A DNA stretch of 53,120 nucleotides from a virus. Made by a program: the position numbers and the translations under genes. Positions 16,770 through 52,075 of the stretch are shown piece after piece; position 1 is the first letter of the stretch; each line of letters opens with the position of its first letter. The stretch covers positions 1 to 53,120 of IMG/VR virus record IMGVR_UViG_3300035633_000512. The stretch is one strand, 5' to 3'. Under the pieces are notes generated by a model. That model made no database searches, was not told the origin of the DNA, and saw nothing but the letters and a program-made list of their open reading frames with translations.

Positions 16770-16780
16770 GGTCCAACGCC

Positions 16781-31100: not shown

Positions 31101-31812
31101 CGCGGACCTCCACGTCGAAGGCAACGTCAACTCGCTGGTCTGGGAGCTGCAGGGTGCCGACGCTGACAAGGTCAAGGAAGAGCTGCAGCCCTACACCTCG
31201 CAGGGCATCCGGTTCCAGGTGAAGAAGCGAGCCCAGCTGACCGGCAACGAGCCTGCCGTGAACACGCAGCAGCCGGACTACGTCCAGGTGCCTGCGGACC
31301 TCGGTCCGGACTCGGAGACCGACGACGCGGCGTCCAACGCTGTCGAGGCGCCCAAGGTGAACCAGCAGGTTCCCGCGCAGTCGCAGCCGGGCACCTCGGA
31401 CTCGGTCGAGGCGGGCGCTCCGCTCGGCTCGGACTCCGAGACCAAGGACCCCGGAAGCTTTGGCGCACCGAAGCCGAAGGCGCAGCCCGACCAGCAGCCT
31501 CAGCAGGGCGAGTCGCACGCGTCGACCGAAGGACCGGCCGCCGGTCTGGGAGCCGACTCCGAGACCGACCCGAAGATCCACAAGCACATGGACGATGTCG
31601 CGGCCCGTGCAAGCGGGGCCACGCGCAGCGCAAACGCGCGCCTCGACCAGCTCTATGAGCTAGGAGAGCGCGTGACCAAGTCGGCTGGCCTGAAGTCGTC
31701 TGAGGAGCTGTACGCGAACGCGGAGGTTCAAAAGTTCATCCGCGACCACGGAATCGACAAGAACGCGGCCCTGGACGTGGTGCGCGAGGTTCTGCCGAAT
31801 GACGCTGACTGA
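28111..31812 (+). CDS. Giant acidic low-complexity virion protein (1233 aa)
   Basis: I do not recognise an enzyme. Residues 1-230 are helical (MKTLETLRRLGGKSPRSPLA and following). Then come strongly acidic stretches (FEEDDGMLEEADELHFDEEG), a cysteine cluster MCGKCGGDHGMHEAC at about residues 375-390, a Pro/Gln/Ala-rich spacer near 700-760, a helical domain near 860-960 and 2.2 copies of a 41-residue repeat at 1064-1153. Short basic-T/S-A motifs (SRTADD, GRTAKR) separate segments. Start is GTG immediately after the previous stop. A scaffold, internal head or injected protein is likely from its place in the late operon. The end overlaps the next gene by 14 nt. Confidence 0.6.
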   Translation: MKTLETLRRLGGKSPRSPLADVASELVARVNAAEEQRMHEAHARQASLGGGAGPILSVLKKRLAEANAASLVNNAAPAITRADFHQLLREASSKEPKDRGLGRAATHAYRLWSKEATGALTVGDVARFRAHYHEEYPRSKVASVIDTEVPKLGFNVLPAAKLARIAAQIQRAGGDQAAYNEAMVQYGLDQQTAHAFRCRAFVRALVAASDEHEAEDEGHGEERMARRLKARLATDEDPILRRFAQFEEDDGMLEEADELHFDEEGNVGSEQTVDSPITGEPLHIELEEGSSEDVPEEDMTAGGPLPQGMEVMGQLEDFAPESVTVMEDPTDPDGGELEVTVRPLDDAGPMPEPDDAPVELSDEDMTIIGRRIARGMCGKCGGDHGMHEACASRTADDEREFTDDDIEAWEKSVEHYAGAQQYAVYASVNGEMGKKPIDSFPAVSMSAALKRIARHGVRGQLLGNPDRLGTECYVELQDGNHLLIRAAEQQPELKGKDEAFEPDVHDQQPDSLSVTDDILLGDKTMGKQHHPFAALADSVLDGRTAKRAGWELQVNGDADVVLTYQGKQKRKASLGELDEVVREFVDASAPPAPRQLHYAAHKHTASGEYLVVTDVPGDTEDQRHNAKRILHAIQKVIPSARGVLRKDAKLQLKFAAGEPELGRVRRILEDQYRAKEYRIAQVDMPPSPGSTANEGTAQLTPADPNQLVQNPPVPAGTVQQPAAPAAPAQQPAQPAPGGYVGPPQAAPAAQPQAAKTTNRAVEGSWLITFKDPSGNTAEAPVQARTAGVAKDLFERFNDDCEVVKVAQFMEVAPGEPIGGGEDVPLPVADMLDAESVPPDSGAPAPAPMGMDMGGSSLSPEENDALRAALTHYRNQGLGPMSALDQIASQYQDLLSHHGDKTDTQRHDIEAAIMAMVPEIWAQPALLDKAAQMQQVIPQVPEQIIEGKPLGFADMNEPQKSSVTLVYLDNPVQDDMQAKKKFMANMHRVMTMTSRLLGADLHVEGNVNSLVWELQGADADKVKEELQPYTSQGIRFQVKKRAQLTGNEPAVNTQQPDYVQVPADLGPDSETDDAASNAVEAPKVNQQVPAQSQPGTSDSVEAGAPLGSDSETKDPGSFGAPKPKAQPDQQPQQGESHASTEGPAAGLGADSETDPKIHKHMDDVAARASGATRSANARLDQLYELGERVTKSAGLKSSEELYANAEVQKFIRDHGIDKNAALDVVREVLPNDAD
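31300..31569 (+). repeat. 41-residue tandem repeat in the 1233-aa protein
   Basis: LGPDSETD starts at residue 1064, LGSDSETK at 1105 and LGADSETD at 1146, an exact period of 41 residues (123 nt). The rest of each unit is also related (APK followed by Gln/Pro-rich sequence, then an Ala/Gly/Ser-rich end). The third copy is only the head of the unit. Such acidic repeats often bind a partner or contain processing sites. Confidence 0.7.
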
Positions 31813-35295: not shown

Positions 35296-35865
35296 ATGAG
35301 CTTCCCCAACGCATTCACCCTCACCAACCTCGCGTCGCGCGCCCTCGCGCTCGACGCCAAGTTCTCCGAGGACCGAGCCCTCCGCCGGAGCCTTCCGGTC
35401 GGCGGCTCGATCACCTTGGCCCCGAGTGACCTCGACGGTGCAACCCTCGACGAACTCGACCGCAACCCCCAGATCGCGCAGCTGATTGCTGACGGCGACC
35501 TGTCGATCACCATGACGCAGGGGCCGATGGTCAGCTTCCAGCTGGAAGTCGCAGCCGACGCGGGCACCGACGCTGCGGGCGTCCTGCTGCTCGGCCCCGT
35601 GCCGTTCGACATCCGCCTGACCCAGGTCACCGTCGACGTCCCGACCGGCGTCACATCCTCGACCCTGACCCTGGCGGACGCAGCCAGCTCGGGCAACGCC
35701 TACACCGGCGCCATCGACACCGACGGCACCCCGGCGTTCATCGCAGCTGCGGCGCTCACCGAGAACCGAGTCATCGCCAAGGGCAGCTCGCTCTTCGGAC
35801 AGCAGTCGGCCACCGCGAAGCCCGCCGTGACCATCACGCTTCAGGGGATGCGCGTCAGCATCTAA
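35296..35865 (+). CDS. Beta-rich small virion protein candidate (189 aa)
   Basis: The product starts MSFPNAFTLTNLASRALALD. It has strand-forming segments (GGSITLAPSDL, VSFQLEVAADAG, RLTQVTVDVPTGVTSSTLTL, PAVTITLQGMRVSI) and is low in charge and rich in Ala, Thr and Gly, like phage head decoration or fibre-tip proteins. It has its own strong Shine-Dalgarno (GCAGGAG, 8 nt spacing) and a possible promoter, consistent with high expression. The identity is not established. Confidence 0.5.
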   Translation: MSFPNAFTLTNLASRALALDAKFSEDRALRRSLPVGGSITLAPSDLDGATLDELDRNPQIAQLIADGDLSITMTQGPMVSFQLEVAADAGTDAAGVLLLGPVPFDIRLTQVTVDVPTGVTSSTLTLADAASSGNAYTGAIDTDGTPAFIAAAALTENRVIAKGSSLFGQQSATAKPAVTITLQGMRVSI

Positions 35866-36950
35866 TGTCGTTCGCGGTCACCCAGACCGCCGACTTCTTC
35901 AAGCCCGGTGACAAGGTCACCCTCGGCAACGGAGAAGAGGGCGTGGTCAAGCAGCACGTCGTGTCGCCGACGGGCTTCCATTCGTACCGAGTGGACGTCA
36001 CGTCGGGGTCGCGTGCGGGCGGCACTGTAGGCGCAACAGCGCCTGCAATGCGGCGTCGTGGTCTGCGCACTGCGCAGCGTATCGAACCTGTGACCGTGGG
36101 AGACCGAACCTTCAACTGCCGTGTGGCAGCCTCGCCCCTGGAGCACCAGGTGGGGTTGCAGGGCACGGCAAGTCTCGACCCCAACGAGGGGATGCTCTTC
36201 GTCTTTGACCACCCGCGTCACGCGACCTTTCACATGGGCAGCGTCGGTTTTCCGATCGACATCATGTTCGTGGAGAACGGACGCGTGGCGCGTGTGGTCC
36301 GCTCTGCCAGCCCCGGAACCCGGGAGCGCTGGGGCCATCCTCGGACCGCTGCGGTCATCGAGGTGGCGGCCGGCCTTGCACCTCGCGTAGGTGCGCGTGT
36401 GGCAGCGCCGAGCCTTGGACGAGACCCTGAGCGCTACGAGATCAGCTTTCCTGAGAACGTCCACGACAACGGTGCGCGCACGAACCGCTGGAAGGAGCGG
36501 GGCACGCCCGACGACGCGGACCCGAACGCAGACCAGATGTCGCCTCGGGAGTTCGTGGACCGAGCGCCCTACAACCCGTTGGGCGACAGCCCGGCCACCG
36601 CGCCATTCCGTCCCTCCGCCCAGGCAATCAGCGACCCGGTCGACCTGTTCGTGGGCTTCATCGACTCCATGTCGAAAGAGGCACGCCCGCTAGACTGGCA
36701 CCGAAACGCCTTGTCCCCGAAGCTGGCGCACGCCATCATCACGCAGAAGGACATCGCAAGCTGGGTGTCGAACTTCGGCCTGACCGGTGGAGAGGCAACA
36801 GATGTTCTCTCGGCCGCGACCTCATCCGAAGGGATGCAGGTACTGGGAGACGGATTTGTCCTGAGCGGTCTCGCTCGTATCGCCAACGTCGCGTCCACCG
36901 ACGAAGGAGAGGTGCTCATCTTGTGGACGGAGTACGAAGATGTCGCGTAA
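35865..36950 (+). CDS. DUF192-domain protein of the late region (361 aa)
   Basis: Residues of about 80-185 are a DUF192 domain: a strand VAASPLEHQVGLQG, then NEGMLFVFDHPRHATFHMG, FPIDIMFVENGRVARVV and AAVIEVAAGLAPRVG. DUF192 proteins are small beta-fold proteins of unknown activity, unusual in a virion operon. A basic RTAQ motif lies directly before it. An N-terminal SH3-like segment (PGDKVTLGNGEEGVVKQHVV) and a helical C-terminal half flank it. ATG overlaps the previous TAA by one base; the 3' end overlaps the next gene by 11 nt. Confidence 0.65.
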   Translation: MSFAVTQTADFFKPGDKVTLGNGEEGVVKQHVVSPTGFHSYRVDVTSGSRAGGTVGATAPAMRRRGLRTAQRIEPVTVGDRTFNCRVAASPLEHQVGLQGTASLDPNEGMLFVFDHPRHATFHMGSVGFPIDIMFVENGRVARVVRSASPGTRERWGHPRTAAVIEVAAGLAPRVGARVAAPSLGRDPERYEISFPENVHDNGARTNRWKERGTPDDADPNADQMSPREFVDRAPYNPLGDSPATAPFRPSAQAISDPVDLFVGFIDSMSKEARPLDWHRNALSPKLAHAIITQKDIASWVSNFGLTGGEATDVLSAATSSEGMQVLGDGFVLSGLARIANVASTDEGEVLILWTEYEDVA

Positions 36951-37734
36951 GGACAAGCTGACCCGCCTCATTCAGAAGGCCATGAACACCAAGCAGGCCG
37001 AGACTGCCTGGGACCTCGGGGACATCGACCTCGAACGGCGCCCGCTCGACCAGCGTGAGCACCCTGGCGCGGCAGCCATCCTCCTCGTGCGCGAGGCCAT
37101 GGCGCAGTTCGAGATCCCGTCCGAGGTGAGCCTCACCTACAAGGGCATGCGTCGCGCGTCGGGTCACGGGCAGCATCACCTGACCGACGGGCTCATTGAG
37201 GTCAACGCCGACTTCCGCTCCATCTCGGGCACCAAGCACCACGTCAACGTGCCGGTCATCGTGCACGGGGGCTACATGGTCTTCCCAGAAGTCTTTCAGC
37301 ACGAGGGTCAGACGCACGTCATGGCGCAGTCGGCCTTCGACGAAATCCTGAAGCGCGGCAACGTCTACCAGAAGATGCAGGACCGCAAGAATATGTACTC
37401 GCCGCACTTGGAGGAGCGCTCTTCGCCCGCGCCCGTCCCGGCGGTGGGCAACGGCCTGTTCGGCGTTCACGCGAGCAGCAAGCAGGCCGACCACACGCCT
37501 CACGGGCTCGACCCCGCCGAGCGTGACCACTCGCGGCAGCATCAGCCTGGTGACAAGGTCAAGCTCTCCAACGAAATCCAGGCACGCCTTCGTGGCGGTT
37601 CCCGCATCGTGTACACCGCAGGTACCGAGGTGACCGTCATTCGGGACATGGCCGGCGACGGGTACACGTACTACTGCGAGTTCCCTGACCGTCGCAGGGC
37701 GCCAGTCCACTATGCTGACCTCGCAGACGCCTGA
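36940..37734 (+). CDS. Hypothetical late protein (264 aa)
   Basis: The product starts MSRKDKLTRLIQKAMNTKQA. A central alpha/beta part (VSLTYKGMRRASGHGQHHLT and HVNVPVIVHGGYMVFPEVFQ) precedes a C-terminal SH3-like segment (GDKVKLSNEIQARLRGGSRI) like the one in the preceding protein. KQA motifs occur near residue 18 and before the C-terminal part. It overlaps both neighbours (11 and 23 nt), so translation is probably coupled to the terminase gene. The function is unknown. Confidence 0.6.
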   Translation: MSRKDKLTRLIQKAMNTKQAETAWDLGDIDLERRPLDQREHPGAAAILLVREAMAQFEIPSEVSLTYKGMRRASGHGQHHLTDGLIEVNADFRSISGTKHHVNVPVIVHGGYMVFPEVFQHEGQTHVMAQSAFDEILKRGNVYQKMQDRKNMYSPHLEERSSPAPVPAVGNGLFGVHASSKQADHTPHGLDPAERDHSRQHQPGDKVKLSNEIQARLRGGSRIVYTAGTEVTVIRDMAGDGYTYYCEFPDRRRAPVHYADLADA

Positions 37735-39784
37735 GCCTGCACTCGACGGCTTCCTCGACGACTTCCAGGCTGCGGTCCAGGAAGCGGTCGACGACCGTCC
37801 AGAGACCTCGGGTCGCCTGGACGAAGAGCGTCAGTACCTCGTTACGCCCGCGCCCAACGCCATCCGATGGTGCGTCGAACCGCAGTTCGGCAACATGCCG
37901 TCGCTGTACGAGTACACGCGCTCGTACCAAGTCGTGCGGGACGTGTTCCAGCTGCGCTGCCCGATCTGCAACCCCCGCGGCGACACCGACTGCTGGGGCA
38001 GGACGCGCACTCAGCTCGACGCCGAGTGGCTGCTCGAATGGTCGCCCAAGCACGAAGAGGACGTGTGCCCGAAGTGCGGGACCACGCGCTCCGAGTTCGA
38101 GGAAGACGGCCTCCTGAAGCGCATCAACGCGCTCCACCTCGTCTGTGGACAGCGTTCAGGCAAGTCAGTCGTCGCGGCCATGATCGGCACCTACGTCGAG
38201 CACCGCATCCTGACCATTGCGCACTCGACCCCAGGTGGGTTCAACGCGCATCTCGGTCTGACCATCAAGGACCCTTCCGAGATCACCTTCCTCGCCTCGA
38301 ACGAGATTCAGGGACAGGACACCATCTGGGCGAAGTACCGCGCCATGCGCGCAGACGCGCCCTGGTTCAAGCGCTACGTCTCGTGGGTCAAGGACCAGGA
38401 GGCGAAGCAGAACACGCCGCCGGGCATGGAGCGTTGGGTCTACTCCGAGGCCAACCGGAAGATCATCAACGAGCATCCGGACTGCAAGTTCATCATCAAC
38501 TCGCTGAACTCGAACTCGGCGGGTCTCCGTGGTCGAACCCGCATCTTCGGAGGCCTCGACGAGGTGTCGCACATGCAGGGCGGCGAGTCGCGATTTTCAG
38601 GGGATGAGATCTTCCGCTCGATCGACAACTCCCTGCAGACGGTCCGCTCGCGTACGAAGCTCGTGGGCTCGCTTCCGTGGCTGGGACTGCTCGCATCGGT
38701 CACCAGTCCGCTGTCCAAGGACGACAAGGGCATGCGCCTTCTGAAGGACCCGCCGGACAGCATGCTCACGTACCATCTGCCGACGTGGCAGTTCAACCCG
38801 TTCGAGCCACGGGAGAACTTCGACGCCCTCTACCAGAAGGACCCCGTCGGCACCGAGCGAGACTTTGGCGCGAACCCGCCGCTGGCTGCGCACCCTCTCA
38901 TCCACGACGTGGGCCGCTTCCATGACCTGGTGACTGACGCGACGCTGGAACCCGCCTGTCAGTTCGAGACGCCGATGTTCATGGAGTCCGGCCACAGCTA
39001 CATCGGGATCAAGGTCAAGGACCTGCGCCCTCGGTACAAGCGCTCGCACTTCATTGCGCTCGACGCTGGCAAGAACTTCGACGCCTTCTCGGGCGCGTGC
39101 GCGCACGGTGAGGTGTACGTGGACCCGGACTCGGGCGTTCAGCGCACGAAGACCGTCCTCGACTGGGTCTTTCGGATCCTGCCGCAGCTCGGCACTGAGG
39201 TGTACTACGACGACATCTACGGGGTCATCAAAGGGCTCATGCAGTCCATGCCGATTCAGCGCGTCGAGTTCGACCGCTGGAACTCGACTCAGCTCATTCA
39301 GCAGATCCGCCGCGCTGGCATCGAGGCGGAGCAGAAGTCTCTGAAGAACGAGGACTGGATCCGCTTCCGACAGGACGCCTACGCCGGCACCATCGCCATG
39401 TTCCCGCCCGCAGCCGGCGAATGGGACAAGCCCTCGGGTGAGTACATCGTCGACCCTCCGGACATGCACCCGCACACCTGCGCCCTGTACGAGTTGGAGG
39501 GTTTGGAAGAAGACCCTGAGACCCAGAAGGTGTACAACCCTCGTAAGGGCCTCGAACGCGGCTTCAACTCGAACGACACGGCCCAGGTCGTGGTGCACGT
39601 GCACAAGATGGTTCAGGACGTTGGCTACACCGAGCGCATGAACGACCGCTCCCGCGACGCGCGACGCAAGCGTGCGCAGGCGGGCGGACAGGACTTCATG
39701 CGCCAGGGGATGGGCGGTGTCTACAACATGTCTCGACTGGGCGGCGGAGGTCCGCGCAATTGGGGCTCCGGACGAGGCTGGTAA
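37712..39784 (+). CDS. terL: Terminase large subunit
   Basis: This 690-aa DNA-packaging motor has an ATPase with Walker A LVCGQRSGKSVVAAM and Walker B IFGGLDEVSH, and a C-terminal RNase H-like nuclease beginning HFIALDAGKNFDAFSGAC, with further acidic residues in VYYDDIYGVIKG. An N-terminal zinc-ribbon-like insert (RCPICNPRGDTDC and VCPKCGTT) precedes the ATPase, an uncommon addition. The Gly/Arg-rich C-terminal tail (MSRLGGGGPRNWGSGRGW) may contact the portal. It cuts concatemers and pumps DNA into the prohead through the portal encoded two genes downstream. Confidence 0.93.
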   Translation: MLTSQTPEPALDGFLDDFQAAVQEAVDDRPETSGRLDEERQYLVTPAPNAIRWCVEPQFGNMPSLYEYTRSYQVVRDVFQLRCPICNPRGDTDCWGRTRTQLDAEWLLEWSPKHEEDVCPKCGTTRSEFEEDGLLKRINALHLVCGQRSGKSVVAAMIGTYVEHRILTIAHSTPGGFNAHLGLTIKDPSEITFLASNEIQGQDTIWAKYRAMRADAPWFKRYVSWVKDQEAKQNTPPGMERWVYSEANRKIINEHPDCKFIINSLNSNSAGLRGRTRIFGGLDEVSHMQGGESRFSGDEIFRSIDNSLQTVRSRTKLVGSLPWLGLLASVTSPLSKDDKGMRLLKDPPDSMLTYHLPTWQFNPFEPRENFDALYQKDPVGTERDFGANPPLAAHPLIHDVGRFHDLVTDATLEPACQFETPMFMESGHSYIGIKVKDLRPRYKRSHFIALDAGKNFDAFSGACAHGEVYVDPDSGVQRTKTVLDWVFRILPQLGTEVYYDDIYGVIKGLMQSMPIQRVEFDRWNSTQLIQQIRRAGIEAEQKSLKNEDWIRFRQDAYAGTIAMFPPAAGEWDKPSGEYIVDPPDMHPHTCALYELEGLEEDPETQKVYNPRKGLERGFNSNDTAQVVVHVHKMVQDVGYTERMNDRSRDARRKRAQAGGQDFMRQGMGGVYNMSRLGGGGPRNWGSGRGW

Positions 39785-39785
39785 C

Positions 39786-42700
39786 ATGCAGGTTCTCTAC
39801 AAGGGACAGGTCGTCGGCAAGGTTGACGAGAACGAGGTGGGCTTTTGGTGGACGCCTCTGCACGAGGACGTCTTGCCCACGACAGGTCTGAAGGAGACGC
39901 TCGAAGAGGCCGTCGCCGAGATCGCCTACCGCTGTGAACTCCCCGCCGACCAACTCCAGGTGACCGCTGCCGTCAACGTGGTCGACGAGGCGCCCGAGTC
40001 TCATGACGACGCCTTCTGGGACACGAAGCAGCCCGGGCAGCTCGACACGCAGGACACCAACTTCCCCGCAGGCGAGATCAATCAGGACCTGTCCGGCGCC
40101 GACCCCTGGGCCAACCGACGTCAGCGTCAGGGCCAACTGCATCGGGCAGGCGCGCATCCCAGCTCGCATCCGCGGTTCAACCGGGAGGGCGATGAGCAGG
40201 GCAGCAGCGGCTCGCATCCGCACGCGGACGCGGCTCCGGTTTGGGACCCGAACGCTCAGGTCACGTGGAAGACCGACCAGGACTACCAGAACATCGCGCA
40301 GCAGTATGGACAGGTGACGCCCGGCGAGCACTCGAACCTGAAGTTCTACGACTACACACCCCACACTCAGTCGATTGATGACCTGGCCAAGGCGAAGGGC
40401 TACGACGTCTACCTCGCCGGTGGGAAGTACGAAAAGCCTGACCTGGAGCACCGCAACTACAACACAGGCCACCTGATGGTCTATGACCCTACGCCCGGCT
40501 CCGGGGGGACCTTCGACGACGAGCAGTACACGAAGGCCTGGCGGACCATTCACGAGCTGGCGCACGCTCAGGTCTACGAAGGTCTGAACGAGATGTACGG
40601 CGAGGGCCGCCGCATCGGCAAGCTCGGCTGGCAGCGTTCGCCCCGCGAAGCGAAGCGTGCCGTGCACTGGGAGTGGCTCGCCGCCCACCGTCAGCGTGAG
40701 CTGGCCGAAGAGTACCTCGACTACCACGTGCCGGACGAAGTGTTCAACATGGAACTCAACACCGTCATGCATGACGCCGTGCACCGTGCCATCACAGGCA
40801 AGTTCACGAACCCCGACCTCGAAGGCTTCGTGCCGTCCAAGGAGAAGGTCCCGTTGGAGGTCGCTCTTGGCATGATCGACGAGGCCGCGCGCAAGCTCGG
40901 GCTGCCTGACGATGAGTCGGTGCTCACACCTGAGCAGAAGAAGGAGCTGCGCCAGCGCAAGGCAGCAGGCGCGGACGACGAAACCTGGGCGCGCATTCAA
41001 CAGCTCGAAGAGCAGGCACTGGCCGCCTACGAGCGCGGCGACTTCCAGACCGCCGAGAACCTCGACGCCGAGTACGCAGACTTGGTCGAGTCGCTTGGGC
41101 AGGCCGACGCGGAGGACGAGTCGGTCTATGACCTCGACCCGTTCCACCAGGCTCTGTGGGAGATGGCCGAAGCCTACGAAGCGTTCCAGACGCGTGAACT
41201 CTACAACGGCACGGTCTTGACCAAGGATGCCCTGATTGAGCGTTTGGGTGGGATCGTCTTCGAACTCACGGGCAACCGCTTCCCGGCAGCGCAGCTGCTT
41301 GACGCCGCGCAGGACGCAGCCGCTCGCATGTCGGAGCTGCGCGGGCGTGGACGCAAGTCGGCCACGCAGCGCTGGTACCACGGCAGTGATGCGCCTCTGG
41401 ACGGCTTTGATGCGCCGCGACCGAAGTTCTCGGGAGCTGTGTTCTTGTCGCCCACACCCTCATTCGCTGCACTGCACGGCCCGCATGTCTACGAGGCGTT
41501 CCCTCGTGTCTCGACGATCTTTGAAGGGGCTGACCTGGTGCGCCCGGACGCCAGGTATTGGCCGCCTGATGAGTCTGAGCTGACTCCACTGGGGCGCGCT
41601 CTTCTTGAACTGGTGGACGGCGACCGCGAGGTGGTCGCGTGGGCGGTGCGAGAGGGGTACGACATCATCGAAGACGCGCGGGTCGTCGACCTACTGAAGC
41701 GTTGGGGCTACGACGCTGCGTATGTTCAGGGCGACGGGCCGCGCAACTTGATGGTTTTCGACCCACACCACGTTGAACTGAGTCAGCGCAAGTCGGCCAC
41801 ACCGTCAGGGCATGAGCTAGGTGACCTCACAGAAGACCCAGAGCTGGACAACCACACGCGTCAGCCGACACCGCGCAAGCTCGATGACGCGTTCCGCTGG
41901 AACGAGTCCTACTCGTCCGAGAACCAGTTCGAGGACCCGAACCTGAAGCTCGGTCAGCGTGCGGACGAGGACGACTACTCCTGGCTGGATGACGACGAAG
42001 ACGAGGGCTTCGACTGGGAGAACGTCTTCCCAGAGCCCGAAGAGGGCCAGGGACTGGCGGACGTCCTGGAACCGCTCCCTGACCCGGAGCCCGAGTCGCC
42101 AGACCTTCTCGACAGGGTACGCTTCGAGTTCGAAGGGCCGCGCGAGTGGCCTGAGAAGATCAACCCGCGTGACCCGCCTGAGGTGGAGATCCGACCGATG
42201 GTCGACAACCGAAGCCTCGGCTATCTGGTCCTCATGCTCTTGCGAGACGCTGAAGGGCGTCCCTTCGCACGGGTCACCGGTGCGAACATCGCACATGGAC
42301 TCCGCGGCTATGGCCTCGGCAAGCAGATGTATCGCGTCGCTCTCGACTGGGTGCGTGACCAGAACGCATGGATGGAGTCGGACACGGCCGTTTCGGAAGC
42401 GGCTCGTCGCGTCTGGCGCTCGTTGATGCAAGACGCTTTGGTCTCAAAGCGCTTCGCCCCAGGTCGTAACGTCGTCATCCACGAAGACCAAAGCGGCGAA
42501 GATTTCCCCTGGAGCTACGGACGCGACTGGGCACCTGAGCTGCACCAGCAGTACCGAAGCGCTCAGCGAGACCGCATGCCGGTGGCGTGTGTCGACCTCG
42601 ACGGCACCATTCTCGAAGACCCCGACTACGACATCACCGAGCCGTCGGGTCAGCCTGGGCTCGGCGAACCCAAGCGTGGCGCAGCTAGCGCTCTGCAGTC

Positions 42701-44834
42701 GCTCAAAGGGCTCGGCTGGACGCTCATCATCCACACTGCCCGCTTCTCGAAAGCACGCACGCCTGCGCAAGCCGAGCAGATGCGCGACGAGATCGAGGAC
42801 CACCTGCAGCGCGCGAATGTTCCCTTCGACGACGTAGCGACGGGCCCGAAGCCCATCGCGGACTACTACATCGACGATAAGGCCGTCGCCTTCAACGGCG
42901 ATTGGTGGGCAACGACCAAGCGCCTCACCGTCCAAGGACAGACGTCTGGGTACGCCTACCACACGACGCCTCATCAGAACCTCGACGACATCGCCCGAGA
43001 GGGATTGATGCCTTACGCACCTGATTACGGGACCGACCAAGAGGCTTGGCCTGACGGCGGCGAGGAAGACCGTATCTACTTCAGCCCAACAGAGCAGGGC
43101 ACTGAGCCCTTTCAACACTCGTCAGGACAACCAATCCTCCGCGTCCCGATGAGTGCCATCTCGGGACGGGAACGCTATACGGGAGACATGTACGCGCGTC
43201 ATGCCATCCCGCCGTCGGTCATCGAGGTGAGGACCGAAGACGGCTACGTGCCCATCCAGTCGTTTGTCCGTCAGGCCTACCTGAAGCCGGACAAGGAGCC
43301 GGGCGCCTCGCTCGTCGTAGTCGTGCCTGTGCCTATGGACTGGCCTGAGGTCAAGGACAACGGCCCCGCGCACCTGACCCTCGCTTACATGAAGGGGCCG
43401 CACAGCGAAGACGACATCGACCTCGCGCACTCGCTGGTACGTGAGGTTGCAGACAACCATGCGCCCTTCGACCTGGAGTTCGAGCCGGGTGTGGCGTGGT
43501 TCGAAAACGACAAGGGCGAGTCGATCGCACACAAGCGGCCTGAGGCTGGGCTTGACCAACTCACCGCGATGGCCAACGAACTGGTCGCTCTTTTGGTCGA
43601 GCACGGGTTCGAGGTCGGTCACGCTGACGAGCCGTTCAAAGCGCATGCGACCCTGAAGTACTGCGACGGGCGTAACTATGACGGCCCGGTTCCTGAGGGT
43701 GGCTTCCGCGTGGACCACATCAACCTCTGGGGTGCGAACGAGGAAGGCTACGAGCTGCCCCTCCGCAGAGGACGTACCGCCGCCGCGCTGCAGTCGCCAC
43801 CTCGCATGGTCGAGGATGTGCTCGAAGGCATTCGCGAAGCCGACGAGCCGGGGACCTTCATCGTGCCGTTCAACCCAGAGGACTGGCGCTACGCCGACGT
43901 GGCTCAGGCGCGCTTTCCGCTGGTCGTCGAAGTCTTCCATCCCAAGGACTTCAAGGCCGGAGACGCGGCGTACGCGCCGCACGACCGCACACTGAAGCTC
44001 CCCATCGACGCGTCCTATCAAACCGTCATCCACGAGATGACGCACTACACGCAGCACCTGCTGTCGGGCCGCGCGTCGGACATTCTGCAGCCTGACACAC
44101 GCGGCTACCCGTCGCCCCGGATTCAGACCGGCAACCCGTTCTACGAGATGGCCGAAGAGCTGAAGGCCGGAGGCGAGCACGCGCTCAGCGACGTCGAGTT
44201 CTGGCCCCGCGTCATGGAGTACGTCAGCATGGTCAAGCACATGGTGTCGCCGGGCGTCTTCGCTCGCGACGTCGGTCTGCGTGGCGTTCCGCGACAGGGC
44301 TTCTTCAAGACGTTGAAGGAGCGCGCACCGGCCAAGTGGCGCCAAGCAGTGAAGTACGCCTACCAGAACCTCTTCGCACAGGAAGAGCTGACGCCCTCCG
44401 AGTGGGCGATGTTCGGCCCGGACCCGAAGCTCCCTGAGCGCGACGCAGCAGGCACCGAGCTGGACCTGACTGGCAACCCGAACGATTGGGGTGACGAGTC
44501 TGGGGCCGGGACCCGCACCGACCTGAGCGTGAATCCGTACGGCGGACGCGACCAGCTCCTGAACCGTGCGGGCTCTGCGAACTGGGACAAGACCGTCCAG
44601 GCCGAGGCGAACCGCATGCTCGGACTGATGCTCGACCGAGGCCAGATGCGCTTCCGCTTCAGTCGAATCTCGAACCAAGGCAAGCGACAGCGCGACGCCG
44701 CCAACTTCCTCGTTCAGCGCGGGCTCGCCCACATCGTGGCGAAGCGCCAGATGAACGCGGACATGATTGTGACCATGGCACCTGGCGCGGGAGTTGCAGC
44801 GCAACCCGCTGAGGCGTACCCTACGGAGGGCTGA
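39786..44834 (+). CDS. Giant polyvalent protein with seven predicted enzyme domains
   Basis: This is one 1682-aa frame. Domains in order: zincin 1 (HELAH at 256-260, in AWRTIHELAHAQVYEGL); ADP-ribosyltransferase-like 1 (YHGS at 531-534 to about 665); GNAT acetyltransferase (about 800-898, LRGYGLGKQMYRVALDWV and VSEAARRVWRSL); HAD phosphatase (VDLDGTI at 936, IIHTAR, YYIDDKAV at about 1027); ART/KptA-like 2 (YHTTP at 1058 to about 1160); 2H phosphoesterase (HLT at 1196-1198 and HAT at 1287-1289); zincin 2 (HEMTH at 1416-1420). This matches the polyvalent-protein concept for phage proteins injected with DNA. Basic-[S/T/Q]-A motifs sit at several domain borders. ATG 39786 is 1 nt after terL, with GAGG upstream. 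Individual activities are predictions. Confidence 0.8.
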   Translation: MQVLYKGQVVGKVDENEVGFWWTPLHEDVLPTTGLKETLEEAVAEIAYRCELPADQLQVTAAVNVVDEAPESHDDAFWDTKQPGQLDTQDTNFPAGEINQDLSGADPWANRRQRQGQLHRAGAHPSSHPRFNREGDEQGSSGSHPHADAAPVWDPNAQVTWKTDQDYQNIAQQYGQVTPGEHSNLKFYDYTPHTQSIDDLAKAKGYDVYLAGGKYEKPDLEHRNYNTGHLMVYDPTPGSGGTFDDEQYTKAWRTIHELAHAQVYEGLNEMYGEGRRIGKLGWQRSPREAKRAVHWEWLAAHRQRELAEEYLDYHVPDEVFNMELNTVMHDAVHRAITGKFTNPDLEGFVPSKEKVPLEVALGMIDEAARKLGLPDDESVLTPEQKKELRQRKAAGADDETWARIQQLEEQALAAYERGDFQTAENLDAEYADLVESLGQADAEDESVYDLDPFHQALWEMAEAYEAFQTRELYNGTVLTKDALIERLGGIVFELTGNRFPAAQLLDAAQDAAARMSELRGRGRKSATQRWYHGSDAPLDGFDAPRPKFSGAVFLSPTPSFAALHGPHVYEAFPRVSTIFEGADLVRPDARYWPPDESELTPLGRALLELVDGDREVVAWAVREGYDIIEDARVVDLLKRWGYDAAYVQGDGPRNLMVFDPHHVELSQRKSATPSGHELGDLTEDPELDNHTRQPTPRKLDDAFRWNESYSSENQFEDPNLKLGQRADEDDYSWLDDDEDEGFDWENVFPEPEEGQGLADVLEPLPDPEPESPDLLDRVRFEFEGPREWPEKINPRDPPEVEIRPMVDNRSLGYLVLMLLRDAEGRPFARVTGANIAHGLRGYGLGKQMYRVALDWVRDQNAWMESDTAVSEAARRVWRSLMQDALVSKRFAPGRNVVIHEDQSGEDFPWSYGRDWAPELHQQYRSAQRDRMPVACVDLDGTILEDPDYDITEPSGQPGLGEPKRGAASALQSLKGLGWTLIIHTARFSKARTPAQAEQMRDEIEDHLQRANVPFDDVATGPKPIADYYIDDKAVAFNGDWWATTKRLTVQGQTSGYAYHTTPHQNLDDIAREGLMPYAPDYGTDQEAWPDGGEEDRIYFSPTEQGTEPFQHSSGQPILRVPMSAISGRERYTGDMYARHAIPPSVIEVRTEDGYVPIQSFVRQAYLKPDKEPGASLVVVVPVPMDWPEVKDNGPAHLTLAYMKGPHSEDDIDLAHSLVREVADNHAPFDLEFEPGVAWFENDKGESIAHKRPEAGLDQLTAMANELVALLVEHGFEVGHADEPFKAHATLKYCDGRNYDGPVPEGGFRVDHINLWGANEEGYELPLRRGRTAAALQSPPRMVEDVLEGIREADEPGTFIVPFNPEDWRYADVAQARFPLVVEVFHPKDFKAGDAAYAPHDRTLKLPIDASYQTVIHEMTHYTQHLLSGRASDILQPDTRGYPSPRIQTGNPFYEMAEELKAGGEHALSDVEFWPRVMEYVSMVKHMVSPGVFARDVGLRGVPRQGFFKTLKERAPAKWRQAVKYAYQNLFAQEELTPSEWAMFGPDPKLPERDAAGTELDLTGNPNDWGDESGAGTRTDLSVNPYGGRDQLLNRAGSANWDKTVQAEANRMLGLMLDRGQMRFRFSRISNQGKRQRDAANFLVQRGLAHIVAKRQMNADMIVTMAPGAGVAAQPAEAYPTEG

Positions 44835-44840
44835 ACCAGC

Positions 44841-47069
44841 ATGAGTGAGATCGAAGTCTTCAGCCCCTACGGCGACCCCCGCAAGCAGGCCAGCCGCCGG
44901 GCGCCTCTGATGTCACCGCGAGGTCCCGACACGCCGCACGGGCTCACAGGACGTCAGGTGGAGCGTATGGCGAGCCGCATGGAGGAGTTTCTCCCCAAGC
45001 TCGGCTCGAAGTACGGCAGCGTCAACGACGTCCTCGGTGACATCCTCCCGGACGGGGCGACGCTGTCACCAGGCGCTGGGGCCGGCTATAGGGAAGCCCT
45101 GCGCCGGCACGCGAACATTCCCGCCGGGGCGGGCGGGTTTGGAGGCTCGGGCGTCGGTGGGCAGGGCGTCTTCCAGACGACGCAGCGTCCGTACCAGCCC
45201 GAGTTCGAGTCGCCCGACCGTCAGCAGTACCCGGTCCATCGGATCCTGGCGAACCGCTACTGGCGCCTGTTCTACAAGCTCGACCACGTCATCGGCAACG
45301 GCATCGACATGTACGGTGACCTGCCCTGGGGCAACTGCGAGTTCAGCGGCGACGGTGTCGACGGCGAGGTGAAGGACATGATGGAGCTGGCCTGGGACGA
45401 GTGTCAGATGCGCTCCATCTTGCCGGCCGCTACCCGTGAGTTCTTCGTCGTGGGCGAAGCGGCGCCACACCTGTTTTGGGACGACACCAAGGGGATCTGG
45501 ACCTACTGCGCACTCCACAACCCGGACCAGCTGGAGGTGGTCGACGCGCCCTTCATCAAGATGGACCCGGTGGTCGAGTTCATCCCGGACCAACGCCTGC
45601 AACAGGTGCTGACCTCGAACCATCAGATGCTCCGGCACGTGCGCGACTCGATGCCGACTGAGCTTCTGACGCGCCTGATGGCCCGACAGAACATCCCCCT
45701 GTCGCCGGTCAACTTCACGTTCCTTCCGCGCAAGCTCCACCCCTACGACACGCGCGGCACCTCGATCTGCAGTCGCATGTGGCGAATCCTCATGTACGAG
45801 GATGCTATCTACAACGCGTCCATCGCGACCGCCCGCCGGCACGCTGGCCCCATCAAGGTGGCCAAGCTCGGTAACCCACAGAACGACTGGATTCCGGGTC
45901 CTGAGCACGAGCGCAAGCTCCTGGAGCTGCTGGCTCAGGCCGAGCTGGACCCGAACGCCTGGCTTGTCTACCACTACGGCATCAACTTCGAGCTGGTCGG
46001 CACGACCGAGCGCGTGATGACCATCGACAAGCACAACGAGACCATCGAGCGCGTGAAGCTGATCGCTTTGGGCATCAGCAAGGCCTTCCTCCACGGGGAA
46101 GTTACATATGCATCGGCCGCTTCTGGGCTCACTGTGTTCCTGTCGCGCCTGAAGGCGCTGCGCCAGTACTTCGAAGCGAAGTGGCTTCTGCCCAAGTTCT
46201 TCTTCCAGATGGCGAAGATCAACAAGTGGGTGAAGCCGACGCAGGCCGAGCTGTCTTCGCGTGTGCGCATCCGCCGTTCGCATCGCGAGCTGTCCGAGGA
46301 CGCTCGCTACATCGTGCCGAAGCTGGAGTGGGACCGCACGCTCGACGCGTCCGTCGACAGCGAGATGCTCGGCGCGCTGGAGGCACTTCAGAACCTCGGC
46401 GTGCAGGTCAGCAAGTCCACGATCATGTCCCTGGTCGGACGCGATTTTGAAGACGAGACAAAGCAGCGCAAGAAGGACTACGAGTTCGAGAAGGAGAACC
46501 TGCCTCCTGAGATGCTCGTGCAGCCGGACGCCGAGGGTGGAGGCGGCGGTCCGTCCATGCTTCCGGGCATGGACCCGGGCGCCTTCGGAGACGTTGCCCC
46601 CGACCTGGAGGGCGGCGAAGGTCCGCCTCCGGACGCCGCCGGCCCTGCCCCCGAGGGCGCAGGCTACAACGCCGACGACGGCTCTACGGGCGCACCGGCC
46701 CCCGACCCCTTCGAAAAGGGCGACCGGGTCAACATCTGGACCAAGTTCGACATCCGCGACCTGATGGACCTCCTCGACGGCGAGGAGCCCGAGGACGAGC
46801 CCTGGCTGGGTGCCTTCAAGGACCCCGACGTCCGCTACGCCCTGAAGGGCGAAAACCGCCAGGAAATCTTCGAGGCGGTGAAGGAGTACCTGGAGCGCGA
46901 GGAGTTCCCGCCAAGCTCGGTCCGGGCGCTTGTTGACATCCTCAAAGAGATGAACGTCATCAAGCGAGGCAGCGCAGCCCGCGCTCCCAGCGAACGTGCG
47001 CGTGAGGCGCAACTCCTTGATATGATTGATGGTTATGGCGGAAATGACCTCTTGACAGGTAGAGGGTAA
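44841..47069 (+). CDS. Portal protein
   Basis: The 742-aa product has the pattern of large-phage portal proteins: YPVHRILANRYWRLFYKLDH, NGIDMYGDLPW, then RSILPAATREFFVVGEAAPH, HPYDTRGTSICSRMWRILM and the stem helix region ALGISKAFLHGEVTYASAAS. It forms the dodecameric DNA gate at one head vertex, onto which the terminase docks. A C-terminal extension of about 180 residues is Gly/Pro/Asp-rich and then helical, longer than usual. A basic PRKQASRRA motif lies near the N-terminus and could be a processing site. GGAGGG lies about 10 nt before the ATG. Confidence 0.85.
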   Translation: MSEIEVFSPYGDPRKQASRRAPLMSPRGPDTPHGLTGRQVERMASRMEEFLPKLGSKYGSVNDVLGDILPDGATLSPGAGAGYREALRRHANIPAGAGGFGGSGVGGQGVFQTTQRPYQPEFESPDRQQYPVHRILANRYWRLFYKLDHVIGNGIDMYGDLPWGNCEFSGDGVDGEVKDMMELAWDECQMRSILPAATREFFVVGEAAPHLFWDDTKGIWTYCALHNPDQLEVVDAPFIKMDPVVEFIPDQRLQQVLTSNHQMLRHVRDSMPTELLTRLMARQNIPLSPVNFTFLPRKLHPYDTRGTSICSRMWRILMYEDAIYNASIATARRHAGPIKVAKLGNPQNDWIPGPEHERKLLELLAQAELDPNAWLVYHYGINFELVGTTERVMTIDKHNETIERVKLIALGISKAFLHGEVTYASAASGLTVFLSRLKALRQYFEAKWLLPKFFFQMAKINKWVKPTQAELSSRVRIRRSHRELSEDARYIVPKLEWDRTLDASVDSEMLGALEALQNLGVQVSKSTIMSLVGRDFEDETKQRKKDYEFEKENLPPEMLVQPDAEGGGGGPSMLPGMDPGAFGDVAPDLEGGEGPPPDAAGPAPEGAGYNADDGSTGAPAPDPFEKGDRVNIWTKFDIRDLMDLLDGEEPEDEPWLGAFKDPDVRYALKGENRQEIFEAVKEYLEREEFPPSSVRALVDILKEMNVIKRGSAARAPSERAREAQLLDMIDGYGGNDLLTGRG

Positions 47070-47108: not shown

Positions 47109-47228
47109 ATGGAGCAGTCCGGTTTCAAGAAGCGGGGCACGCAGGAGGGTGAATCCCTCGGCACTGTGCCGTCGCCTGCACCCGCGCCGAAGCCCGACGA
47201 AGACAAGGACAAGGGCAAGGGTAAGTGA
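47109..47228 (+). CDS. Very small charged late protein (39 aa)
   Basis: The product starts MEQSGFKKRGTQEGESLGTV and ends in a Pro/Asp/Lys-rich tail (KPDEDKDKGKGK). It is directly behind the second late promoter, and its TGA overlaps the GTG start of the protease-scaffold gene. It may mainly serve as a leader peptide for coupled translation, or be a small head protein. No family is recognised. Confidence 0.6.
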   Translation: MEQSGFKKRGTQEGESLGTVPSPAPAPKPDEDKDKGKGK

Positions 47229-50080
47229 CGACCGGCTTCCGTAAGACGGCCAAGGTCGAGCACGTTGCCACGCTCGCCTTCGATGCCGACAACGGCGGGC
47301 TCCGCAAGACGGCGCAGCTCGACTCCGCGTCTGACGCCGCCCAGCGCTCCTACTACCTGGACGGCTCGGCCAAGGTCGACGTCCGCGGCATTCTGGAGCG
47401 CCAGGCGCAGAAGTTCGCGATCAGCGCGGACCCCTCAGACTACCTCTTCGAGGTCATTCGCGCCAACACGACCTCCGTCTTCAACGACAACCATGACGGC
47501 TTCGCCCGGGAAGAGCTGCTGCGCTTCGACCCGCGCCTGAAGACCGCGGTCTTTCTCACCTACCGCGAGAAGCCGCACCACGTGAACCACCGCACCGACA
47601 ACCCCAAGCGTGCGCGTGGCGTCATCCTCGACAGTCACTACAACGCCGAGGCCACGCCCCTGGAGAACTGCCCTGGCTGCAACCTTCGCACGGCCGAGCG
47701 CAAGAACCGCGACAAGTCCGGCATTTACTGCCGCCGCTGCGCCACCGTCGTCAACGACGAGTTCGTCGAGATCCTGGTGGCGGTCGACAAGAAGAAGGAC
47801 CCCGCATTCGCCCGCGCCGTCGAGACCGGGCAGCTTCGCTTCGGCTCGATGGGCTGCACCTGCGCCGAGACCGTCTGCAACGTCTGCGGCAACGTCGCCC
47901 GCACCCAGCGCGAGTTCTGCAAGCACATCGCTTCGCACAAGGGCAGCTACTGGGCCAAGAAGGCCGACGAAGACGACTGGTCCAAGATCAACCCCCGCAC
48001 CGCCGAGGCCGAGATGAAGCGCCGCAAGCGCGCCTTCCATCAGCGTGACTTCGTCGCTCTGAAGGCCGAAGACGGCTACGAAGTCCGCAAGGCCGCCGAG
48101 TGGTGCCAGGGCGTCGAGTACGACGAGTACTCGCGCGTCCACATGCCGGCCGACCCGAAGGCCGAGCGCATCGAACTGCTCAACAAGGCAGCTGGCGCAG
48201 GCGACCCGACCCCCGAAGACCTGCGTTCCGAGACCGCCCACCTGGTCGCGGCAGCACGCACAGCAACGCGCGGCCGTCGTCAGAAGGCCGCGGGACAGGA
48301 GAGAGCAGCGATGAAGTTCTACGTTGTGCGCGTCGATGGAGACCCGCTCGACACCTACGCGGCCGAGTCACTCGACATGGCCCTCGAAATGGCCGGACCT
48401 GAAGAGGGCGCCCAAATCGAGGTGGCCGAGGTCGAGGCGGATGACGCCGGCGCCGCTCGTCTGATGCCGAGCGACGAAGACTACCAGCCCCACATGGGTG
48501 CGGACGCCAACCACGAGATGGAAGGCGACGTGACCATCAACATCACCGAGGACCCGGCCACCGGTGAAGAGTCGGTCGAAACGGTCGACGACCCCGCGCC
48601 GGACCCCACGAGCATCGAGGACTTCACGGATGAGGTCCTCAATCCAGAACCAGAAACCCCCGGAAGAGACGAGTTCTCGCCGGAGGAGCTTGGCGTCATG
48701 CCTGCAGGCGCCAGCAAGGAGGCAACAGCAGTGCAGCACACGAGCTACGCCGACTGGTCGGTGCAGGTGACGCCTCAGGGAGTCGCCCAGGTCATCGCTC
48801 CCAGCGGCCCCGCCCTCTTGGTCACCCCCAAGAAGGCACTGAAGGACGACCAGGCCAAGATGGCCTTCGGTCAAGAGATCATGGACCACCTCTGCGACCA
48901 CGGACTGCTCCGTACCGCGGAGAAGTACGAGGCCAACTTCCATGCGAAGTTCGCATCCGTCGTCGACGGCGCGATCGACGACATGAAGGAGTACTCGGAC
49001 AAGGACAGCAAGCCGGACGTCGCCTCCGGAGGCGAGTCGGACATGGCTGGCGAGCACGGTGGCGATCAGCGCGGCATGCACGCAGACGACGTTCGCGACG
49101 AGAACCACACCGACATGGAGCCTGGTTCCCGCGAGCCCAAGGTCGAGATGACCGACCAGAACCGCGCCAGCGACCACGAGCTGGGCAACACCGACGACCG
49201 ACCCGACTCCTCGTCGGAGAACGAAGGCTCGGACATGCGCGAGAAGCGCCCCGAGTTCTCGGTCTCGCAGGACGACGCTCTGCAGAACGCGGTCTTCGAC
49301 CACGCTGAGCGCGTTGCGATGGTCGGCAAGTGGGTCGAAGGGCCCGAAGGCAAGACCGCCAAGGTCGCTTCCTACGCCAAGGAGGCGCAGACCTTCACCC
49401 TCGTCGACAACAAGCTGTCGCCGAGCGAGGTGCAGGCCGGTGACCTCATCAAGCAATGGAAGCAGCTCGACCAGGCGCCCTCCTCGTACGAGGACAACCT
49501 GAAGCGCTGGGCCAAGACGGAGATCGAGAAGGCGCGCAAGGCGGCCGTCTCGGATGTCTTCCGCGTCATCCGCATCGCAGCGCAGCGTTCACACAAAGGC
49601 CTGGAGCGCTCGCCTCTGAAGGAGGCGGTCGCGACCCAGCTGGCGAACCAGAAGGTCGTCGGACACGACGGCGTGTCTCGGGCTCCCCTGGAGTACCAGG
49701 GCATGAGCGACGAGCTGGCCATCCACCTGGTGGAAGCGGCATTCGCCGACGCCGGCGAGCGCGACATCGACACTCTGCTTTCGCGAGCTGCCAAGCTCAT
49801 GAAGCACGACACCAACTTCCTGAAGTCGGCAGAGACCGACCTCAGCAAGACCGCCCACCGCGTGCCGGTGGTCACCGCGGCATCCATGGTCGACGACCTG
49901 GACCGCGAGGCAGAGGTGCTGCGCCGCAGCGCCTCCGCAGGAAATCTCGAACTTGCACCGCAGCCGTCCGAAGACGAGCGCTCCACGCGAGTCGCCGCTC
50001 AGACGAACGGCAACGCGGGCAAGATTCGTTCCGCATTGGGAGGAACGCGGGCAGCAGCCCGCATCCAGCTCCGACAGTAA
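47225..50080 (+). CDS. Prohead protease fused to a scaffold-like protein (951 aa)
   Basis: The N-terminal 260 residues fit assemblin-type prohead proteases found in large phages: VFLTYREKPHHVNHRTDN with H118-H122 as the likely catalytic His region, ARGVILDSHYNAE, VEILVAVDKKKDPAFA, then FGSMGC with S208 as the likely nucleophile. Two cysteine clusters (CPGC with CRRC; CTC, CNVC, CKHI) are inserted, probably zinc sites. Residues of about 360-720 are very acidic and repetitive, as in scaffolds, and the C-terminal part is helical. Its place between portal and capsid genes supports the role. Many KTA/RTA motifs (FRKTAK, LRKTAQ, LRTAEK, LSKTAH) could be self-cleavage sites. Start is GTG, overlapping the previous stop. 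Confidence 0.7.
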   Translation: MTTGFRKTAKVEHVATLAFDADNGGLRKTAQLDSASDAAQRSYYLDGSAKVDVRGILERQAQKFAISADPSDYLFEVIRANTTSVFNDNHDGFAREELLRFDPRLKTAVFLTYREKPHHVNHRTDNPKRARGVILDSHYNAEATPLENCPGCNLRTAERKNRDKSGIYCRRCATVVNDEFVEILVAVDKKKDPAFARAVETGQLRFGSMGCTCAETVCNVCGNVARTQREFCKHIASHKGSYWAKKADEDDWSKINPRTAEAEMKRRKRAFHQRDFVALKAEDGYEVRKAAEWCQGVEYDEYSRVHMPADPKAERIELLNKAAGAGDPTPEDLRSETAHLVAAARTATRGRRQKAAGQERAAMKFYVVRVDGDPLDTYAAESLDMALEMAGPEEGAQIEVAEVEADDAGAARLMPSDEDYQPHMGADANHEMEGDVTINITEDPATGEESVETVDDPAPDPTSIEDFTDEVLNPEPETPGRDEFSPEELGVMPAGASKEATAVQHTSYADWSVQVTPQGVAQVIAPSGPALLVTPKKALKDDQAKMAFGQEIMDHLCDHGLLRTAEKYEANFHAKFASVVDGAIDDMKEYSDKDSKPDVASGGESDMAGEHGGDQRGMHADDVRDENHTDMEPGSREPKVEMTDQNRASDHELGNTDDRPDSSSENEGSDMREKRPEFSVSQDDALQNAVFDHAERVAMVGKWVEGPEGKTAKVASYAKEAQTFTLVDNKLSPSEVQAGDLIKQWKQLDQAPSSYEDNLKRWAKTEIEKARKAAVSDVFRVIRIAAQRSHKGLERSPLKEAVATQLANQKVVGHDGVSRAPLEYQGMSDELAIHLVEAAFADAGERDIDTLLSRAAKLMKHDTNFLKSAETDLSKTAHRVPVVTAASMVDDLDREAEVLRRSASAGNLELAPQPSEDERSTRVAAQTNGNAGKIRSALGGTRAAARIQLRQ

Positions 50081-50881: not shown

Positions 50882-52075
50882 ATGCCAAAGCGTAACCCCT
50901 ACGAGCAGGTCATGGGCGGAGGCAACAAGCCGTCGTCCGCCCAGGGCATCCAGACCCCGACGAACACGCGACTCGCGTCGCGTGCTCAGGAGGGCATCCA
51001 CGACGAGAGCGGCGCCTACAACCCCCGAGCATTCGGTGGTTGGGACTCGCTCGGACAGGCCGTCCCCTCGGCCCACAACCGTCTCTTCAACAAGGCGGGC
51101 GAGCTGAACGCTTCTTCGAAGGAAGACGCGCTTGTGCAGATCGCTCACTTGCTGCAGAACGTCTCGGGCTCGCCCGTCAGCAAGCAGGCTTTCAGCAAGC
51201 AGGCTGGCCAGAGCGACATGGACCCCAACGAGCGCCGTGAGGTGCTGGCTGCGGCCATGAAGGACCCCGAGGGCTTCACCATCCTGGGTCAGGAGCTTCT
51301 GCTTCCGATCAAGGACCTGGTCGACTACGAGGGCTGGGCCCGCAAGGTCTACCGCGTGCGTCCGCTCGCCCAGGGTGAGCTGTTCCGTATCGCGAAGGAC
51401 GTTCGTTCCACTGCCTGGATCGTCGGTCAGGACGGTCAGGCTCTGGAGAGCCGTCTGTTCGGCAAGTACGTCCAGCCCTCCGAGTTCAAGATCAGCGCGT
51501 ACCCCACGGTCGACATCGAGGACATCTACCAGATGAACTACGACGTCCTGGACCGTGCTCAGGACACCGCGCGCCAGGAGATCGAACTCGAAGAGGACAA
51601 GCGAGCCCAGGCTCTGCTCGACGTCGCGGCCCGCACGGTGAACACCGTGACGACCTTCGCGACGCTCGGCGTCGGTGCCTTCGAGGACGTCCGCTTCCAG
51701 GTGGAGCGGAATCGTCTCGTCGTCTCCAAGTTCCTGATCAACCGTCAGGAGCTGTCGGACATCATCAAGACGATGTCGACCCAGGTCGACCCCGTCACCG
51801 AGCGAGAGCTGATTCTCGCTGGCTACATCGGCTCGTTCCTCAACGCGCAGATCGTCACTGCGGCCGGAACCGGCGTGCAGGAAGTCGTGCCCGCAGGCAC
51901 CTTCTACGCCGTCACCGACCCCGAGTACATGGGCGAGATGGGCGTTCGAGTCGAGCTGTTCTCGGAGCCCTTCAACATGTTCGCGCTGCGTCGCAGCGTG
52001 AAGGGTTGGGCCTTCACCGAGATCATCGGCTTCGCGGTGGTGAACCCCCGCGCAGTCGCCGTCGGCCAGAAGTAA
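50882..52075 (+). CDS. Major capsid protein, HK97 fold predicted
   Basis: The 397-aa protein lies between the decoration gene and a strong terminator and has an AAGGAG ribosome-binding site. The first 110 residues are polar and Gln/Asn/Ser-rich, ending with VSKQAFSKQAGQSDMDPNER, a probable cleavage zone for the maturation protease (delta domain). The rest contains an elongated E-loop-like region, a long helix (DRAQDTARQEIELEEDKRAQ) and the segment VRVELFSEPFNMFALRRSVK near the C-terminus, as in capsid proteins of SPO1-like and other large phages. It forms the icosahedral shell. Confidence 0.85.
   Translation: MPKRNPYEQVMGGGNKPSSAQGIQTPTNTRLASRAQEGIHDESGAYNPRAFGGWDSLGQAVPSAHNRLFNKAGELNASSKEDALVQIAHLLQNVSGSPVSKQAFSKQAGQSDMDPNERREVLAAAMKDPEGFTILGQELLLPIKDLVDYEGWARKVYRVRPLAQGELFRIAKDVRSTAWIVGQDGQALESRLFGKYVQPSEFKISAYPTVDIEDIYQMNYDVLDRAQDTARQEIELEEDKRAQALLDVAARTVNTVTTFATLGVGAFEDVRFQVERNRLVVSKFLINRQELSDIIKTMSTQVDPVTERELILAGYIGSFLNAQIVTAAGTGVQEVVPAGTFYAVTDPEYMGEMGVRVELFSEPFNMFALRRSVKGWAFTEIIGFAVVNPRAVAVGQK

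Follow-up and report, generated by a model that had tools for sequence, protein, structure and literature searches.

The window analysed here, the whole 53,120-base stretch of a single IMG/VR record, contains one long open frame between its terminase and portal genes, the product of which is a polyvalent protein, an already known class, and which, as judged from sequence, probably travels in the virus head and serves to disarm the next cell to be infected. From the computed frame, its position, the conserved slot and motifs, cargo exchange, and the enrichment of a candidate processing motif with its clustering at domain borders we infer packaging, cleavage, ejection and targets, and we lean towards reading the frame as a head-loaded polyvalent polyprotein, which would be recruited by constant tags, may be separated into its enzymes by the maturation protease and would be ejected with the DNA.

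Position and class of the slot protein

The frame runs uninterrupted on the plus strand from the ATG at 39786 to the stop at 44834 (1682 aa), starting 1 nt past the terminase stop and ending 6 nt before the portal start. An earlier note on this DNA had described a single 1682-codon frame in this place, which is borne out by the intact frame and by profile matches for both flanking genes (Table 1). The genes downstream of the portal encode a maturation protease, which is extended by a long scaffold-like tail, and then the major head protein. The motifs quoted in that note were all recovered (HELAH at residue 256, DLDGT at 937, HLT at 1196, HAT at 1287 and IHEMTH at 1415). Polyvalent proteins combine at least two biochemically unrelated domains in one polypeptide and are encoded amid late virion-protein genes; here 2H, HAD, GNAT and two ART-like domains share one chain, and terminase and portal are the neighbours. 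The proposal of a polyvalent protein that is expressed alongside the head genes and probably packaged is backed by class, position, conservation of the slot and the candidate maturation sites. Direct sequence search of the complete protein against the PDB gave no match, the search for full-length relatives in viral contigs returned nothing useful, and an Rfam search found no match.

Portal and terminase alignments were used to fetch further contigs; in about 27 distinct related ones, the slot between these two genes is occupied by a polyvalent-type protein. The placement within the packaging and head operon, which had been called unusual and was so regarded at first, is shared by the whole clade, and this view was dropped. 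Slot proteins range from approximately 200 to 2200 aa, some being small (264-377 aa; 377 aa in L008, as against 2175 aa in phage Rctr197k), and in a more distant relative (L057) nothing lies between the terminase and portal genes. The window is probably a piece of a larger genome, since its relatives reach 166-197 kb.

Elsewhere in the window, a ThyX thymidylate synthase frame (16727-18667) includes a LAGLIDADG domain that precedes the ThyX match, making an intein likely. A family A DNA polymerase (12351-15212) has a uracil-DNA glycosylase domain fused at its N-terminus, and a RecD2-like helicase is encoded on the minus strand in two frames, an HHH part and an ATPase part (748-2157 and 2617-3618).

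Table 1. Features of the slot protein, its neighbours and candidate processing sites, in window coordinates.
Feature	Position	Strand	Basis
Candidate second maturation substrate, 1233-aa protein; [KR][TSIV]A 11 seen, 3.2 expected	28111..31812	+
Candidate maturation substrate, DUF192 protein; [KR][TSIV]A 7 seen, 1.1 expected	35865..36950	+
Terminase large subunit	37712..39784	+	phrog_17415 E 6e-57
Polyvalent slot protein, 1682 aa	39786..44834	+
N motif (AAVNVVD ... FPAGE), common to relatives' slot proteins	39966..40076	+
HExxH domain 1 (HExxH-1; residues 142-380; HELAH 256, NTVMHDAVHRA 325)	40209..40925	+
Helical segment (residues 403-521), 51% identical in L007	40992..41348	+
RKSAT, candidate processing site left of ART1	41352..41366	+
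ART1, ART-PolyVal-like (residues 526-665); not in L007	41361..41780	+	PF18760 E 0.011
RKSAT, candidate processing site right of ART1	41787..41801	+
M motif (residues 669-727; GHELGDLT ... WNESYSSENQFEDPNLKLG), signature tag of slot proteins	41790..41966	+	E 1e-17
GNAT domain (residues ~770-905)	42093..42500	+	Pfam and L007 homology
RSAQR, candidate processing site before HAD	42555..42569	+
HAD phosphatase domain (residues 930-1049), commonest enzymatic domain of slot proteins	42573..42932	+
ART2, Tpt1/KptA-like ART fold (residues 1055-1158)	42948..43259	+	model, solved-structure match
RQAY, weak candidate processing site before 2H	43269..43280	+
2H phosphoesterase (residues 1170-1329; HLT 1196, HAT 1287)	43293..43772	+
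RTAA, candidate processing site after 2H	43773..43784	+
HExxH domain 2 (HExxH-2; residues ~1350-1550; IHEMTHY 1415), putative	43833..44435	+	motif
C-motif-like stretch (NPNDW...TRTDLSVNPYGGRDQLL)	44463..44564	+	by-eye likeness to L007 end
Portal protein	44841..47069	+	phrog_16240 E 1.8e-73
Head maturation protease fused to long scaffold-like tail	47225..50080	+
Major head protein	50882..52075	+

Enzymatic domains

The sequence-based identification of the 2H and HAD domains is firm. The 2H domain scored E 2.7e-8 against PF13563 (34.4 bits, above the Pfam cut-off of 27) and contains both HxT/S motifs (HLT and HAT), and the HAD domain matched phrog_1238 at E 2.5e-15, with all four HAD motifs (DxDGT, S/T, K and D/DD) kept in an alignment of 20 slot proteins. 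The GNAT assignment is good by way of the closest relative, L007: the window stretch remained sub-threshold in Pfam (E 0.013), but its homologous stretch in L007 (39% identity) reached E 1.6e-8. All three had been named in the earlier note and hold. A mixed-domain alignment prepared for structure prediction was dropped, as 2H had been misaligned with HAD.

The parallel that had been drawn to the anti-CBASS nuclease Acb1 of T4 was not borne out by profile search: the profile matched by the window 2H is that of the general 2'-5' ligase family, and PF23474, the Acb1 model, did not hit it at E up to 1. The slot 2H of a relative (L015) touches this model (E 5.6e-6, just under the cut-off). Judged by its sequence, a role of the window 2H against CBASS is possible, and modification of host proteins or RNA by the ART, GNAT, HAD and 2H domains is plausible from their folds.

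For ART2, the structure model, confident in this part, gives good grounds for predicting a Tpt1/KptA-like ART fold. The best solved match was Tpt1/KptA (probability 0.99, E 0.14), the NAD-site motif is present as YHTT, and an H-Y-E/D pattern is common to the mycobacteriophage and metagenomic relatives. Tpt1 has an N-terminal RNA-binding lobe with Arg/His, for which there is no room here, ART2 starting approximately 6 residues past the HAD domain. The domain is therefore KptA-like in fold, the level at which the earlier assignment stands. The relatives of ART2 form the C-terminus of ParB-like proteins in Bixzunavirus mycobacteriophages, which infect Mycobacterium smegmatis; gp76 of HyRo is one such homologue. 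In Bixzunavirus and Myrnavirus mycobacteriophages (L003 8597-10330 and L074 10645-12330) the homologue ends a (ParB-like) protein encoded upstream of the portal, and these ParB-like/ART2 genes are located near tRNA and RNA ligase genes.

The adjacency of HAD, ART2 and 2H (residues 930-1329) would also fit an RNA end-healing module for defence-cut tRNAs rather than an eraser of nucleotide signals, in which 2H would open a 2',3'-cyclic phosphate, the ART domain would take the 2'-phosphate and HAD the 3'-phosphate. Consistent with such a module, ART2 has Tpt1 as its best solved match, a PDB search with the slot HAD profile retrieved PNKP 3'-phosphatases (E 1.4e-5), and the mycobacteriophages with an ART2 homologue have an RNA ligase a few genes off. 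However, the PNKP matches came behind two uncharacterised proteins, ART2 is devoid of the N-terminal Tpt1 lobe, no RNA ligase was found among the ORFs scanned, and the HAD domains of relatives mostly occur without ART2 or 2H. Iyer et al. likewise saw no ligase link for polyvalent 2H domains (PMC5512222). We regard such a module as improbable.

ART1 is a weak identification from sequence. The match to ART-PolyVal (PF18760) covers nearly the entire profile, at E 0.011 and 16.9 bits against a cut-off of 31.2. No usable structure model was obtained for ART1, and the search for relatives in viral contigs and phage records returned nothing useful.

The two HExxH domains, both described earlier as zincins, can likewise be followed only in part. 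HExxH-1 shares 54-66% identity with domains at 15 further phage loci, and HEL[AS]HA and NTVMHDAVHRA are strictly conserved in these relatives; its core model was confident, but no solved structure was matched by fold or profile. A search for it in phage records gave nothing useful. Its relatives are fused to other cargo, e.g. an S-AdoMet-lyase-like domain or DUF7178. The domain represents an unnamed, very conserved family (L059-L073, L077 and L078), which also occurs in MAG contigs labelled Saccharibacteria and Armatimonadota. HExxH-2 is an unconfirmed domain, at which the sequence hints through its motif and a SprT-like match (E 0.086); model confidence was low, and no homologue was found in viral contigs and phage records. 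In shuffles of the protein, at least one HExxH appeared in 12% and at least two in 0.4%, and a single copy is weak evidence because of the former figure. When the HExxH and ART domains of the window were compared with the Rctr197k ones as single-sequence profiles, no match was significant.

Constant motifs, exchangeable cargo and candidate processing sites

The constant parts of slot proteins are short motifs, namely the N motif, an M tag of approximately 55 aa and a C-terminal motif, usually together with HAD. Such conserved parts had been missed in the earlier domain list, the named members of which are partly backed. In the clade consensus, M reads GxxLxxLT...WxESYxxENxFEDxxLKLG and C reads TRxDRxIPRPP. 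The M-motif profile matched the slot proteins of 24 contigs, three of which (L042, L044 and L045) were outside the training set, and no other protein in these loci at E<1e-3, and the C-motif profile gave significant scores for slot proteins alone in these loci. The C-motif-like stretch of the window did not score significantly against the latter profile.

Between these motifs the enzymes vary. HAD was found in 20 slot proteins, and the exchanged cargo comprises InPase, DUF7178, GGACT, GNAT, 2H, ART, HExxH and ferritin-like domains. The slot protein of L007, whose terminase and portal are 61% and 63% identical to those of the window, keeps the N, helical, M, GNAT and HAD parts and, by eye, the C-terminal motif, and is devoid of HExxH-1, ART1, ART2, 2H and HExxH-2, i.e. 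five of the seven domains named in the earlier note. In L056 the slot contains DUF7178 and HAD, and the same contig has HExxH-1 with another DUF7178 elsewhere (L073), outside the slot; cargo therefore moves between loci. In L022, two ORFs share what is elsewhere a single slot protein, M and HAD being encoded by the first of them and 2H, GGACT and the C motif by the other, which suggests, at the sequence level, that the domains need not remain linked. At this locus (L022 3903-9925), the tags are divided among the pieces in separate frames, and an ORF that appears HNH-like by eye adjoins. Long in-frame insertions, probably inteins, occur at conserved points in the portal genes of L015, L021, L022, L023, L029, L039 and L042 and in the protease genes of L015 and L016.

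That the constant parts are non-enzymatic, with M and C kept where HAD is absent (L021, L037 and L038), and that small members exist, would agree with a slot protein that is mainly a portal- or scaffold-associated assembly factor with inactive domains or structural passengers. This is nevertheless very unlikely, considering that the HAD catalytic motifs are conserved across the 20-member alignment, that 2H retains both HxT motifs, and that a purely structural role leaves the wide variation in cargo enzymes unexplained.

A candidate processing motif, [KR][TSIV]A, is 3.6-fold over-represented in the protease-scaffold family (206 seen versus 58 expected, z 23). Its sites are distributed along the protein, with 16 seen and 3.5 expected in the window member. 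Among terminases, for which no cutting is expected, the family-wide excess was mild (1.5-fold), the non-structural ORFs of Rctr197k showed none, and counts of the generic [KR].A were weaker. In slot proteins, border stretches contained the motif at 12 times the density of domain interiors (p 7e-7), in a test where relatives are not independent, borders are approximate and the motif was picked after viewing the data; three control motifs were null and AxK gave p 0.004. The window slot protein has no significant overall excess (5 seen, 3.0 expected), and four of its five sites lie at borders (p 0.006). A [KR]xA precedes 13 of 19 M motifs, ART1 is flanked by two copies of RKSAT where L007 has one RRATPSG, and in many major head proteins one [KR]xA sits near residue 30 and a second near residue 105, immediately ahead of the conserved core. 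Owing to their [KR][TSIV]A excess, the two candidate substrates upstream of the terminase (Table 1) may be head proteins cut in maturation.

On the reading we lean towards, the N, M and C motifs would bring the slot protein into the prohead during assembly, with the HExxH, ART, GNAT, HAD, ART, 2H and HExxH domains as exchangeable cargo between them. The [KR]-x-A sites that separate cargo domains may serve as cutting points for the phage maturation protease, and the freed enzymes would be ejected along with the DNA and, once in the next host, would modify its proteins, RNA or nucleotides and thereby blunt defence. The constant motifs could, for their part, have any partner in assembly. A more exacting version is put forward tentatively, namely that the slot is a cargo cassette, that the tags direct it to the prohead, that the capsid maturation protease rather than a self-encoded peptidase cuts at [KR]xA, and that the enzymes are ejected together. 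Virion proteomics turned up neither for this clade nor, in the literature library searched, for Bxz1-type phages.

The packaged protein might instead stay intact, as the N4 virion RNA polymerase, which is packaged uncut (PMC5512222), or be cut by the HExxH metallopeptidase domains that it contains, in line with the self-processing by zincins that Iyer et al. have proposed for the polyvalent class (PMC5512222). The presence of two HExxH motifs, the first of them strictly conserved in 15 loci, agrees with this. Self-processing is, however, at odds with the [KR]xA kept at borders in slot proteins, most of which have no recognised peptidase, with the enrichment of [KR][TSIV]A in the maturation protease's own polypeptide, and with the fold of neither HExxH domain being confirmed. 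We consider an intact or self-processed protein rather unlikely.

If cleavage and delivery of tagged cargo are true, effectors delivered from the head could be recognised in sequences by their tags, so that the slot would yield a list of counter-defence enzymes of uncultured phages, and the way in which polyvalent proteins are broken down into working enzymes could be put to the test. How proteins are selected for the phage head could likewise be revealed by the tag.

Comparison with known systems

Polyvalent proteins and their late-gene context were described by Iyer et al. in 2017, who also proposed self-processing by zincins and a 2H activity against oligonucleotide signals (PMC5512222). 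As in their proteins, unrelated enzyme domains share one polypeptide encoded among late head genes, and zincin-like, ART-PolyVal, GNAT, 2H and InPase domains recur in both sets. Unlike theirs, the proteins described here occupy a clade-specific terminase-portal slot, have constant linear motifs and contain HAD more commonly than any other domain; neither a HAD phosphatase nor KptA came up when the main text of Iyer et al. was searched by word (PMC5512222). In contrast to self-processing, candidate prohead-protease sites lie between the domains. To that account the present analysis adds a slot shared across the clade, tags that stay constant and a hint of enzymes being set apart by the prohead protease.

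Gene 045 of Rctr197k (KX853510) occupies the same slot and encodes 2175 aa with GNAT and HAD, next to a terminase and portal 50% and 54% identical to those of the window. Its cargo differs in order and content, its M motif is not significant, and the 2H domain sits in another large protein of the phage. T4 Acb1 shares with the window 2H the fold and the paired HxT motifs, but the window domain does not match the Acb1 model and belongs to a polyprotein.

Proteolytic precedents exist in phage heads. The P1 prohead protease cuts the ejected protein DarA (PMC12810830), and gp245 of SPN3US cleaves head proteins after A-X-E (PMC10052503). These proteins are head-loaded and cut by a maturation protease, and in SPN3US the cut is made at a short P3-P2-P1 motif (PMC12810830, PMC10052503), which is AxE as against [KR]xA for the candidate motif proposed here. 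In P1 and SPN3US cleavage mostly removes N-terminal propeptides, whereas the window protein has several internal candidate sites at which cutting would free enzymes.
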